Positions 34,041-43,272 of a stretch of DNA of 64,000 nt are shown here, one piece after another. The notes under the pieces were generated by a model, which did not search any database, had not been told where the DNA came from, and saw only the letters and a list, made by a program, of their open reading frames with translations. Origin of the DNA: Pelosinus fermentans (lineage in GTDB: Bacteria; Bacillota; Negativicutes; DSM-13327); the NCBI GenBank assembly GCA_002434245.1, contig DJJR01000036.1:40300-104299 (forward strand). Reading direction: 5' to 3'. Position numbers and translations under genes: made by a program. Each line of letters begins with the position of its first letter. Position 1 is the stretch's first letter.

Positions 34041-34508
34041 ATGTCTTTTTTTATGGCACTGGCGGTTTCTATTGTAAAAAGTCTTTCTGTGCTAGTTTCT
34101 TATGTAACAAATAACACATTTCCCTTGCCTCTTTCAGAAAAGGAAGAGCAGATACAGCTGGAGCGGTTGAAGAACGGTGACGAAAATGCTAAGAATGTAT
34201 TAATCGAACGGAACCTAAGATTAGTAGCTCATATTGTTAAAAAGTTTGACAATACTGGAGAGGATACTGATGATTTAATTTCCATTGGTACAATAGGTCT
34301 AATAAAAGCAATTAATACATTTGATGTTGCTAAAAAAATTCGTTTAGCAACCTATGCAGCGCGGTGTATTGAAAATGAAATATTAATGCATCTAAGAAGT
34401 ACCCGGCGGACTCGTGCTGAAGTTAGTTTATATGATCCTATTGGCGTAGATAAGGAAGGTAATGAATTAACATTTTATATTTATCGGTATGAGGTTACGA
34501 TCCGGTAA
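34041..34508 (+). CDS. sigK: sigma-K, 5' half (interrupted gene)
   Basis: N-terminal part of pro-sigma-K. From ATG 34041 (GGGGGTGA upstream) it encodes a hydrophobic pro-sequence and SVLVS-YVTNN, placing the expected SpoIVFB cleavage at Ser20-Tyr21. Region 2 follows (ERNLRLVAHIVKKFDNTGED, DLISIGTIGLIKAI, LATYAARCIENEILMHLR). The sigma homology ends at VSLYDPIGVDKEGNE (codon 142, base 34466). After it come 13 non-homologous codons and a TAA at 34506. Region 4 is missing here and lies at 42991-43272. Sigma-K is the late mother-cell sigma factor. Confidence 0.93.
   Translation: MSFFMALAVSIVKSLSVLVSYVTNNTFPLPLSEKEEQIQLERLKNGDENAKNVLIERNLRLVAHIVKKFDNTGEDTDDLISIGTIGLIKAINTFDVAKKIRLATYAARCIENEILMHLRSTRRTRAEVSLYDPIGVDKEGNELTFYIYRYEVTIR
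34458..34485 (+). other. left recombination junction of the sigK element
   Basis: Core GGTAATGAATTAACATT at 34458-34474 compares with GGTAATGAAATTACATT at 42991-43007, 15 of 17 identical. The element-side arm CATTTTATATTTATC (34471-34485) is an imperfect inverted repeat (11 of 15) of GATAATATGAAAATG at the right junction. The core contains AATGA, the repeat I recall for B. subtilis sigK recombination. Confidence 0.85.
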
Positions 34509-36062
34509 TCATTGCGGTAAACGAGGGCGTAAGACCAATGTAAATGTGTCTCCTTTTTGCCATTTTTCTTTTCTGTATGTGGCATGTTCTAAAATTGATT
34601 TTAAGAATTTATTTTTTTCTGTAGGGTCATTGGATTTCTCATAGGTTTTTAAAACGTTTTCGATTTTAGGAATAATATCTTTTCTGCTTTTTTCCTTTTG
34701 TATTTCCTTAGACAATTCAAATGCTGTTTTGTCTATTTTTTTTTGTGCAGTCGCAATTCTTTCCGAGAGCTTAGTTAATCTTTCCAGGTATGTAGCAGTA
34801 TCATAGATTCCTTTTTCTAAAAGATCATGTAAGTTATCTTTTTGCTGCTCTAATTCTTTTAGTTCTTTTTTGAGATTATGATGGACTTTTTCTCTATTCT
34901 TAACAGCATTATACTGCTCTTTTGGTATAAAAAGATCCCATTGAGTACGATAGTTATTAAGCCATAGCTGTAAACCTTCAAGCAGTTTTTTCTCAACATA
35001 TTCAAAGCGGCAGCTTTTATTCATGCAATGCCTGTTGTAACACATTAAATGTGGAAAGTGCTGATGCTGATAAGGTCGATAAATCATAGAACCGCCACAT
35101 ATATCACATTTAATTAATCCAGCAAGCGGGTTCGTAACTCCATTCAGCAACTGATAGGGTGGATGGTATTTTTGGGATAGCATATCTTGTATCTGCTCGA
35201 ATTCTTCAAGGGTTATATATGGTTCATGACAATCATATATCCAGATTTGTTCTTCCCTGGGGCGACGTCTGGTTTCTCTGCCAGTGCGCGTTGTAGATTT
35301 CTTAGATGCTACTTTTTTCCAGGCATTTACACCGGCGTAGGCTGGATTTTTTAAAATAGCTAGAATTGATGAAGCAGACCATTTTTTACCTGAATAAGAC
35401 AGATATCCCATTTGATTTAGTTCATTAGCGATCTTGTTTGCTCCCATGTCAAGTTGATATGATTTCCATATTAATGCTGTAGGTTCACTTTGTTCTGGAT
35501 GTTTAATCAAGTATCTCTTGCGATCTTTTTTTTCAATGAGGTATCCATATGGTGGAACTGCTCCAAGATAATTGCCTTCTTCGAGTGAGCGAATTCGACC
35601 GCCTTGTAAACGTCTGGTAATAATCTTCAACTCTTTGCGGGCCATAAAGGATTCAAATTCTGTGTATTCTTCATCCCATTCATTGTTTAAATCATATATT
35701 TTGCGTGGTGTTACGATCTTAGTCTGCGCTTGTTTAAAGGTTTCTATAATTAGGCCTTGATCCTGCATTTTGCCACGGCCCAGACGATCGATGTCCATGC
35801 AAAAAACAGATTTCCATTTTCCTAATTCAATTTCCTTTAGTAGATTTAACATTTCAGGTCTATGAATGATACTTTCTCCAGAGACAACTTCTTCAAAGAT
35901 TTTGGTGATGGTTATACCGTGTTCTTTAGCTATTTTAAACAATGCTTTTTTGTGCTTGGCAAGTGTTTCTCCATCGCCTCTTGCTTCAGCCTCTTGATCT
36001 TCTCTCGATTTACGAAGATAGAAGCAAGAAGGCTCTAGGTCTTTATTATGCAGATTACTCAA
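34509..36062 (-). CDS. spoIVCA: large serine recombinase, SpoIVCA-like
   Basis: 517 residues. An N-terminal resolvase domain has the likely catalytic Ser19 in FYLRKSRED, and DIDRLGRGKM. A recombinase domain follows (GAVPPYGYL, NPAYAGVNAW). The zinc ribbon has CDICGG and RHCMNKSC, then a C-terminal coiled coil (about residues 390-470). TTG 36062 has AAGGTG upstream. The gene points toward the sigK 5' half and its stop lies one base past that frame's TAA. It is the obvious enzyme to excise the element. The gene name is by analogy. Confidence 0.92.
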   Translation of the reverse strand: MSNLHNKDLEPSCFYLRKSREDQEAEARGDGETLAKHKKALFKIAKEHGITITKIFEEVVSGESIIHRPEMLNLLKEIELGKWKSVFCMDIDRLGRGKMQDQGLIIETFKQAQTKIVTPRKIYDLNNEWDEEYTEFESFMARKELKIITRRLQGGRIRSLEEGNYLGAVPPYGYLIEKKDRKRYLIKHPEQSEPTALIWKSYQLDMGANKIANELNQMGYLSYSGKKWSASSILAILKNPAYAGVNAWKKVASKKSTTRTGRETRRRPREEQIWIYDCHEPYITLEEFEQIQDMLSQKYHPPYQLLNGVTNPLAGLIKCDICGGSMIYRPYQHQHFPHLMCYNRHCMNKSCRFEYVEKKLLEGLQLWLNNYRTQWDLFIPKEQYNAVKNREKVHHNLKKELKELEQQKDNLHDLLEKGIYDTATYLERLTKLSERIATAQKKIDKTAFELSKEIQKEKSRKDIIPKIENVLKTYEKSNDPTEKNKFLKSILEHATYRKEKWQKGDTFTLVLRPRLPQ

Positions 36063-36119
36063 GTTAGCACCTTCTTTGTTGCCATATGGCTGTTAATCGA
36101 TCTTATAAACATATGACAT

Positions 36120-36148
36120 TTGACAGTGGCCTAGAATGGAAATATACT
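36120..36148 (+). promoter_or_regulatory. strong sigma-A-like promoter inside the sigK element
   Basis: TTGACA (36120-36125), a 17-base spacer and TATACT (36143-36148). CCTAGA (36130-36135) and TCTAGG (36153-36158) form an inverted repeat around the -10, a possible operator. It fires rightward, away from the recombinase. Confidence 0.7.
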
Positions 36149-36194
36149 TATATCTAGGAAAATCTGACATTAGGGTAGTAGTGAAATTTTATTC

Positions 36195-36226
36195 TCCCCT
36201 AGGAAACGTTGCTAGGGGGATTTATT
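36195..36226 (+). terminator. terminator or attenuator about 65 bases after the promoter at 36120
   Basis: TCCCCTAG (36195-36202) pairs with CTAGGGGGA (36212-36220), followed by TTTATTTAT. No gene ends here, so it either attenuates the 355-residue protein gene or ends a small RNA of about 65-70 bases. Confidence 0.6.
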
Positions 36227-36292
36227 TATAAAACAATCTTTTTATATACGGTGGAATAGTGGAATTATATATTACAGATTCGGAGGCATAAG

Positions 36293-42204: not shown

Positions 42205-42215
42205 TCTTGACTCAT

Positions 42216-42620
42216 GCAAAAGGATATTTCATTATAAATGATGAGTCTAAGTCGACACCATAATCTAGTATTAAAATGGATTTAAAAAACCTAATGTTAA
42301 TGTACAGTGTTACGGTGTGATCAATGTTCAAATGTTAGCAGTTCCGCTCTAGAAGTAATACAAATGTAGATAATCTGTAACAATATTGTTACATTTACAT
42401 TATATATTAAGACTATATAAATGACAATTCAGCCTTAGACTTATAAAAAAGTCAGTTATTCCACCTCATCAAGCTTAGAGCATGAATCTATGATAGATGT
42501 ATGCATACATCTATCTCATCTTTTAATGAGACCTAAAGTTGTGAAAGCAACTGATAAAGTAATACTGAGAAAAAATCAGGTCGTTTATAGATTGTACTAA
42601 ATAAATAGGAGTGATTTCTT
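42216..42620 (+). other. palindrome-rich intergenic region
   Basis: About 400 bases with no gene recognised. It holds two perfect palindromes: TGTAACAATATTGTTACA (42376-42393) and a 24-bp one at 42492-42515 with half-site GATAGATGTATG. Both lie upstream of the exported charged protein and may be operator sites; the second could also act as a hairpin before CATCTTTT. Confidence 0.5.
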
Positions 42621-42947
42621 ATGAATAATGTAGTAAAAAAAATGATTGTTTTTTCAATGGTAGGAATAATTCAGATTGGCTTTAGCGCATCATTAGTAGA
42701 AGCTTCAACATTATATAACTTAACTTCGCAGCAACATGGCGGAGATCGGCATGGTCAACATGACAAAGATCAAGATCGTCGTGAACGAGAACGAATTGAA
42801 AATGAACGGCACGAACGTGAAATGAAAAGGCGCCCAAATGAAAATGATCGAGAATGGCATGAGCGTCAGCGACGTGAAAAGGAAAGGCATGAAGAAAACC
42901 TGAGAAGGATTGCTCATGATATTTTAGAGCTAATACTTGATAAGTAA
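42621..42947 (+). CDS. exported, highly charged His/Arg/Glu-rich protein
   Basis: 108 residues. A signal peptide (MIVFSMVGIIQIGFSASLVEA) precedes a low-complexity helix packed with Arg, Glu, His and Asp (for example DRRERERIENERHEREMKRR). It may bind metal or form a long charged helix in the periplasm. AGGAGTG precedes the ATG. It is the last cargo gene, ending 44 bases before the right sigK junction. No family recognised. Confidence 0.65.
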   Translation: MNNVVKKMIVFSMVGIIQIGFSASLVEASTLYNLTSQQHGGDRHGQHDKDQDRRERERIENERHEREMKRRPNENDREWHERQRREKERHEENLRRIAHDILELILDK

Positions 42948-42976
42948 GATGATTATCTGTTTAAATTTTATAAACA

Positions 42977-43007
42977 GATAATATGAAAATGGTAATGAAA
43001 TTACATT
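42977..43007 (+). other. right recombination junction of the sigK element
   Basis: The element-side arm GATAATATGAAAATG (42977-42991) runs into the core GGTAATGAAATTACATT (42991-43007). Reading right of the core, sigK homology resumes at once. The arm mirrors the one at 34471-34485, as expected if the excised circle carries a symmetrical attP. Confidence 0.85.
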
Positions 43008-43272
43008 AATTGATGTTTTAGGAACAGCACCTGATGTAGTAGCTGAGGCGGTAGAAACACAATGCGAACATGAACGATTGAATAAGCAAATTAATCGTTT
43101 GAGCAGCAGAGAAAAATGGGTATTGGAAATGAGGTTCGGTATGCCAAATGGTAATCGAAAAACGCAGAGAGACATCGCAAGAATGCTGGGAATTTCTCGA
43201 TCCTATGTTTCGCGAATTGAGAAGAAAGCTATCGGTAAATTAGGCAAAAGTCTGTCAGCAGAGGATAGCTAA
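42991..43272 (+). CDS. sigK: sigma-K, 3' half (interrupted gene)
   Basis: From GGTAATGAA the frame reads GNEITLIDVLGTAPDVV, then LSSREKWVLEMRFGM and the region 4 helix-turn-helix KTQRDIARMLGISRSYVSRI. This is the missing C-terminal part of sigma-K. Joined to codon 142 of the 5' half it adds 90 residues, for 232 in total, close to the B. subtilis protein. It has no start signal of its own; a chance TTG at 43078 is not expected to be used. Confidence 0.93.
   Translation, partial: GNEITLIDVLGTAPDVVAEAVETQCEHERLNKQINRLSSREKWVLEMRFGMPNGNRKTQRDIARMLGISRSYVSRIEKKAIGKLGKSLSAEDS

Follow-up and report, generated by a model that had tools for sequence, protein, structure and literature searches.

How sigma-K, a switch protein of late sporulation, could be made from a sigK gene that is cut in two by 8.5 kb of DNA is the question raised by the 64,000-nucleotide stretch of Pelosinus fermentans contig DJJR01000036.1 analysed here (the window). 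The two halves of sigK lie at 34041-34457 and 42991-43272 (window coordinates throughout), parted by 8,533 bp, and the SigK homology of the 5' open reading frame (ORF) ends at a core repeat. This 9-bp repeat, GGTAATGAA, found at 34458 and 42991, is the longest exact repeat common to both junction regions, and fusion at it deletes the 8,533 bp precisely and restores a single pro-SigK ORF of 232 residues. The coordinates, insertion site, size and joined product proposed in an earlier first-pass annotation of the window, as well as the loss of SigK homology at the junction, are thus borne out; so is its view of the host as a probable diderm spore former, the genus being Pelosinus in the Negativicutes, a diderm class. 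The 8.5-kb element is a real and conserved sigK-intervening element of the skin type, at a site used across the Negativicutes. Since sigK is cut in two by an element with its own recombinase, it is probably readable only after excision, and we consider it about 90% probable that the element works like skin, being excised in the mother cell by its own recombinase with the help of a small directionality factor.

The gene that follows the sigK 5' half, on the minus strand, encodes an intact large serine recombinase with Resolvase, Recombinase and Zn-ribbon domains. The closest solved structure is SprA of SPbeta (9dxh), aligned over recombinase residues 12-503 (E 5.6e-45), and the three domains together with this near full-length similarity identify the protein as a SprA-like large serine integrase. 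The first-pass annotation had called it SpoIVCA-like: a serine recombinase does stand at the left edge, the nearest structure being SprA and SpoIVCA lying outside the comparison. Its relatives reach 51% identity in phage records (Thermoanaerobacterium phage THSA-485A) and 61% in IMG/VR contigs. The core repeat is set within inverted arms, ACAGATAA at -17 and TTATC(T/G)GT at +23, whose dyad is centred on the GA of GGnAATGA, suggesting a 2-bp crossover at this GA. In counting attachment sites, sequences were aligned on the core and identical ones counted once; 2 of the 23 attR have no recognisable core. The same arms were found at sigK in IMG/VR contigs L199 and L200 (43 and 46 kb), in the Clostridia-type metagenome-assembled genomes (MAGs) L100 and L106, and in Alicyclobacillaceae L112, indicating that a single integration specificity is widely shared. 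At 2878-6917 of L106, the sigK 5' half is oriented opposite to the 3' half, both with the usual arms, so that reconstitution there would need inversion rather than deletion; a local inversion or an assembly error is possible. The sigK halves of Shimazuella L107 face similarly.

The first-pass annotation had regarded the element as distinct, partly for its small size. Comparison with relatives corrects both points. The recombinase was matched at E<=1e-60 in 26 of 380 genomes of the class, including all eight of Pelosinus (the window's counted), and the element is common to the genus. sigK sequence adjoins the recombinase in 25 of these 26 loci, the other one, L195, having no SigK match. A 5' half reaches to about codon 142-146 in 21 loci (the recombinase match of L196 being partial) and to codon 125 in L192, while three loci (L173 of G007, L181 and L190) hold only a middle piece starting near codon 107-110. 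Both junctions were available in five genus-mates. Four give a joined ORF at the same codon after removal of 7.9 kb (G002), 6.2 kb (G004), 14.8 kb (G005) and 19.4 kb (G006), and the fifth, G001, is broken at the same codon, with about 5.3 kb between its halves. Codon and orientation are the same, and the recombinase is related, in all 12 other loci examined that have the 5' half and recombinase on one contig. Among 79 loci, the arrangement recurs in Sporomusa acidovorans, Propionispora sp. 2/2-37, a Massilibacillus MAG and a Peptococcaceae MAG, and 53 show no SigK match in the examined stretch; most of these are Clostridia MAGs whose recombinases are about 38% identical. In the Alicyclobacillus and Tumebacillus loci the recombinase adjoins the sigK 3' half instead, at about the same codon. 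Elements at this site range from 2.8 to 19.4 kb among the relatives measured, the lengths in G010 and G037 resting on core positions set by hand; the three smallest (2.8-3.4 kb) are reduced to the recombinase and the small gene described below, plus, in two cases, an ORF of about 150 aa.

Descent of the element was assessed by comparison with sigE. Distances between recombinases in 14 genomes were correlated with sigE DNA distances (Spearman 0.59; 22 of 5000 permutations as high), and within Pelosinus the two trees have no well-supported conflict, both grouping G005 with G006, and G000, G002 and G007 with G001 and G004. The element thus appears to be inherited within Pelosinus; across families tree support is weak and transfer is possible. 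These observations bear on the best surviving alternative, that an ordinary mobile element sits at a favoured site and leaves it at random or for transfer, free of developmental control. This alternative is favoured by the kinship of the recombinase with phage integrases and by IMG/VR contigs (43-46 kb) that occupy the sigK site too. On the other hand, searches of the element proteins against Pfam, NCBIfam and PHROGs brought up nothing recognisable as a transfer or phage structural gene, and a purely mobile element would leave sigK function to chance excision. When the seven element proteins other than transposases were compared with PHROGs, five had no match; the Spo0E-like protein hit a family of unknown function, and the recombinase hit integrase and invertase families and one of unknown function. 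With no phage structural or replication gene among the seven, the element does not qualify as a prophage. Taken together with the apparent inheritance in the genus, this makes a purely mobile role improbable. Most likely, the element is what remains of a prophage directed at this sigK site, which retained little beyond the recombination unit while cargo was gained and lost.

Since the first-pass annotation had staked its reading on there being no complete sigK elsewhere, such a copy was looked for. A SigK-model search found no second full-length sigK in the window's assembly (4.55 Mb, 82 contigs, 83.5% complete). The only match stronger than the halves, C63:1889 (open frame of 254 residues, model 18-226), reaches 253 bits, below the cut-off of 298.65, and shares 50% identity with the joined SigK, indicating that it is SigE-like. 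Related genomes, in which an intact gene might likewise be sought, gave no SigK match above the cut-off in the one-contig genus-mates G004 and G006, and a match above the curated cut-off, taken to denote an intact gene, in 13 of 60 genomes searched, the window's counted. The host genome encodes SpoIIID and has 11 sigma region-2 matches, and a DUF1256 gene, presumably of the yyaC type, lies directly upstream of sigK.

Selection on the joined frame was then compared among six of the eight Pelosinus genomes. G007 was left out because its 3' half was not located, and G003 because its assembly contains two different sigK 3' halves (L066 and L067), probably from mixed genomes, possibly contamination. 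dN of the 3' half was 0 in 15 of 15 pairs over 78 codons, with no amino-acid change, while dS ranged from about 0.2 to more than 2 (one pair not computable). Variable columns at the first, second and third codon positions numbered 4, 0 and 46 in the 3' half, and 11, 4 and 73 in the 5' half. The invariance of the amino acids while synonymous sites diverge shows that the joined product is under selection. The recombinase and the small gene at 37588 are also constrained (dN/dS 0.04-0.21 and 0.12-0.29, respectively). A sigK broken by the insertion, in a strain that does without sigma-K, would fit the missing intact copy and the two insertion sequences within the element. Purifying selection acts strongly on the two halves throughout Pelosinus, however, and the recombinase, itself intact, is constrained as well; complete genomes show the same arrangement. 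We therefore regard a dead gene as even less probable than a purely mobile element. Less probable again is that two separate proteins made from the halves assemble into a working sigma factor without excision. A TTG at 43078 could start a 64-aa region-4 peptide, but the first codons of the 3' fragment precede any in-frame start and are nevertheless constrained, indicating that they are kept as part of a longer frame; moreover, two proteins would give the recombinase and arms no reason to persist. An assembly artefact, conceivable in a source of 82 contigs, is in practice refuted by the identical split in the one- and two-contig genomes G002, G004 and G006.

A directionality factor was sought among the remaining genes. 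When the recombinase and the ORFs on its opposite strand are set aside, the 62-aa gene at 37588 is the only element ORF present in all 12 comparable elements, namely those with sequence extending past the recombinase, and homologues of its product occur in IMG/VR contigs carrying the same integrase family. The protein has a weak fold match to SprB, with no detectable sequence similarity between the two; a PDB sequence search with the small-protein alignment returned chance-level matches only (best E 0.52), and phage records gave no match. Judged from these sequences, it is most likely the recombination directionality factor (RDF) of the element. A conserved block ahead of the gene (37530-37588) contains GTCC-N14-CATA in 11 of 12 loci, against 12 of 6000 shuffles. 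This block was first read as a sigma-E promoter, a reading made less certain because phage homologues of the protein code through the same stretch as an N-terminal extension. In the window and some relatives a stop or frameshift was seen there by eye, and the block may therefore be a promoter, a leader or relic coding sequence.

The purifying selection on the 3' half, the conserved arms, the conserved recombinase and the candidate RDF together argue that excision is probably needed during development. We infer that in the mother cell the left-end recombinase and the small directionality factor would act on the two core repeats at the GA of AATGA, releasing the element as a circle and leaving a continuous pro-sigK, whereas the forespore would retain the element, which would thus be inherited. 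Upstream of sigK, CACA-N16-CATA was found in 12 of 12 loci compared with 24 of 6000 shuffles, a pattern picked after inspection in a set of which half are close relatives; it is consistent with a sigma-E-type promoter. A scan with a sigma-E consensus was not significant in the window alone (shuffle fractions 0.13 for sigK, 0.98 for the recombinase and 1.00 for the small gene) and reached <=0.02 at sigK in 4 of 12 loci. No sigma-E-type signal was seen at the recombinase gene. In skinCd of Clostridioides difficile, the recombinase is made constitutively, and sigma-E and SpoIIID control the gene for the RDF (PMC5025042); by analogy, similar control logic is possible in the window's element.

The window's element occupies one of three sites on sigK: site A near codon 113, where we take the B. 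subtilis core AATGA to lie, site B near codon 142 (the window's element), and site C at codon 217. In G001 (P. propionicus DSM 13327), G004 (P. fermentans JBW45) and G005, the 3' half stops at SRIEK (codon 217) and is followed by a different, second serine recombinase, with the last 15 sigK codons about 2.4, 2.3 and 48 kb beyond the break, respectively (L082 in G001, L083 in G004, L084 with L280 in G005). G007, G039 and G046 have a 5' half that ends near codon 113-115, and on a different contig each carries a middle piece of some 30 codons next to the site-B recombinase; a 3' half was located in the latter two but not in G007. This middle piece also occurs in L093, a contig of an uncultured Pelosinus. 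This double split at codons ~113 and ~142 was seen in L068 with L173; in L071, L190 and L072; in L073, L181 and L074; in L093; and in L107, the pieces being mostly on separate contigs and some not located. In all, three sigK pieces were found in five Negativicutes genomes and two of three in a sixth. Behind the complete 3' end in the window and G002 lies a recombinase fragment matching the codon-217 element of G004, and an extra copy of the sigK tail is kept in G002 and in a G003 contig of doubtful origin. It is therefore likely, judging from these remnants, that the window's lineage formerly carried the codon-217 element and then regained an unbroken 3' end. More broadly, we lean, by a modest margin, towards a history in which a single recombination unit of phage origin was retained at one codon of the Negativicutes sigK and persisted as a developmental switch, reduced in some lineages to recombinase, directionality factor and little else. 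The arrival of further units would explain why sigK is in three pieces in P. fermentans JBW45, P. propionicus and at least three other genomes, where sigma-K would need two independent excisions; the window's lineage would have escaped its second element, leaving a relic behind the restored 3' end.

Skin elements have been reported from Bacilli and Clostridia (PMC5595907). As in the B. subtilis skin, with its large serine recombinase SpoIVCA, 64-aa RDF (Skr) and five-nucleotide core (PMC13141910, PMC6957869), the window's element splits sigK and has a large serine recombinase, and its SigK has a pro-sequence, which in B. subtilis is processed by SpoIVFB (PMC10745906). In contrast to that prophage-like element of 48 kb, it is 8.5 kb long with no phage structural genes recognised, and while skr overlaps spoIVCA (PMC6957869), the candidate RDF is a separate gene on the opposite strand to the recombinase. 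In skinCd (CD1231, CD1234; PMC5025042), too, the recombinase gene has its 3' end at attL, beside the 5' half of sigK. The small skinCd RDF is acidic (PMC5025042); the window's candidate has a pI of 5.3, within a range of 5.0-10.0 among 12 aligned proteins. Unlike the window's element, skinCd is 14.6 kb (PMC10745906), and C. difficile SigK lacks the pro-sequence. Alicyclobacillus phage MMB025 and other sigK prophages are also inserted in sigK, with related Alicyclobacillus and Tumebacillus recombinases near the same codon, but MMB025, at 105 kb, is an infectious phage whose core is reported as TCTC (PMC13141910). Sporulation-excised intervening elements without phage genes are represented by gin in gerE of B. 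cereus and sigK island IV of B. cereus biovar anthracis (PMC5595907, PMC10745906); gin interrupts another gene, and island IV, of 22 kb with restriction-modification genes, is at a position other than that of skin. SPbeta, with SprA and SprB as RDF, supplies the closest solved recombinase but is inserted in spsM (PMC4191935), and SprB is unlike the candidate RDF in sequence. No description of a skin element in Negativicutes was found in literature searched for the class, Sporomusa and Pelosinus, a weak absence with most subscription papers outside the search; the available text of PMC3533761 and PMC12456013 describes no interrupted sigK for the class. The stronger novelty lies in the relatives, with their near-bare recombination units and three-piece sigK. 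With the recombination unit conserved across families in elements of such different size, the old question of whether sigK is interrupted by parasites or by useful timers becomes open to test. Three-piece genes, which in three genomes are divided by two different recombinases, would allow the order of two excisions, and any coupling between them, to be tested in named isolates.

Table 1 Features of the split sigK locus in the window
Feature	Position	Strand	Evidence
CATACAAT, sigma-E-like -10 upstream of sigK; CACA 16 nt ahead of CATA	34001..34008	+	CACA-N16-CATA in 12/12 loci
sigK 5' half, pro-sequence and region 2	34041..34508	+	TIGR02846 E 1.3e-70, model 4-144; frame runs on into the element, stop at 34508
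Left core repeat GGTAATGAA	34458..34466	+	Longest exact repeat common with right junction; predicted crossover at GA
Left att arm TTATCGGT, 23 nt past core start	34481..34488	+	TTATC[TG]GT at +23 in 19/33 distinct attL
Large serine recombinase, 517 aa, SprA-like phage integrase family	34509..36062	-	Pfam PF00239, PF07508, PF13408; PHROG 95 E 9.3e-98; PDB SprA E 5.6e-45
Cargo protein, 355 aa	36293..37360	+	No Pfam, NCBIfam or PHROG match at E 0.01
62-aa protein, candidate RDF	37588..37776	+	Recurrence in 12/12 elements; IMG/VR homologues
Spo0E-like protein, possible Spo0A~P phosphatase	38036..38224	+	PF09388 E 1.4e-13
Cargo protein, 115 aa, without clear family	38378..38725	+	Unmatched in Pfam and PHROG; single NCBIfam match weak (E 0.0083) and far under cut-off
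Insertion sequence, DUF772/DDE transposase, two overlapping frames	38958..40387	-	PF05598 E 7.4e-22, PF13751 E 6.7e-30
OmpH/Skp-like protein, 152 aa	40943..41401	+	PF03938 E 7.1e-15; also in G001, G002, G004
IS200/IS605-type transposase	41569..42108	+	PF01797 E 2.7e-35; NF033573 E 2.4e-41
Cargo protein, 108 aa, charged, without clear family	42621..42947	+	Single weak Pfam match under cut-off
Right att arm ACAGATAA, 17 nt ahead of core	42974..42981	+	At -17 in 16/23 distinct attR
Right core repeat GGTAATGAA	42991..42999	+	Exact repeat of left core
sigK 3' half, region 4	42991..43272	+	SigK model 137-226, E 1.1e-31; complete reading only once joined
Decayed fragment of second (codon-217) serine recombinase	43373..43479	-	tblastn with G004 site-C recombinase, E 2.9e-9, two pieces
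Decayed copy of small gene of codon-217 element, one in-frame stop	43631..43798	+	G001/G004 counterparts; translation

The remaining genes of the element are given in Table 1. Both insertion sequences named in the first-pass annotation are present according to Pfam and NCBIfam matches, the one at 38958..40387 being presumably IS1182-like. Neither Rfam matches at gathering score nor tandem repeats were found in the region. Genes related to the Spo0E-like gene of the element are present at several other loci, and in G006 one lies immediately downstream of sigK.

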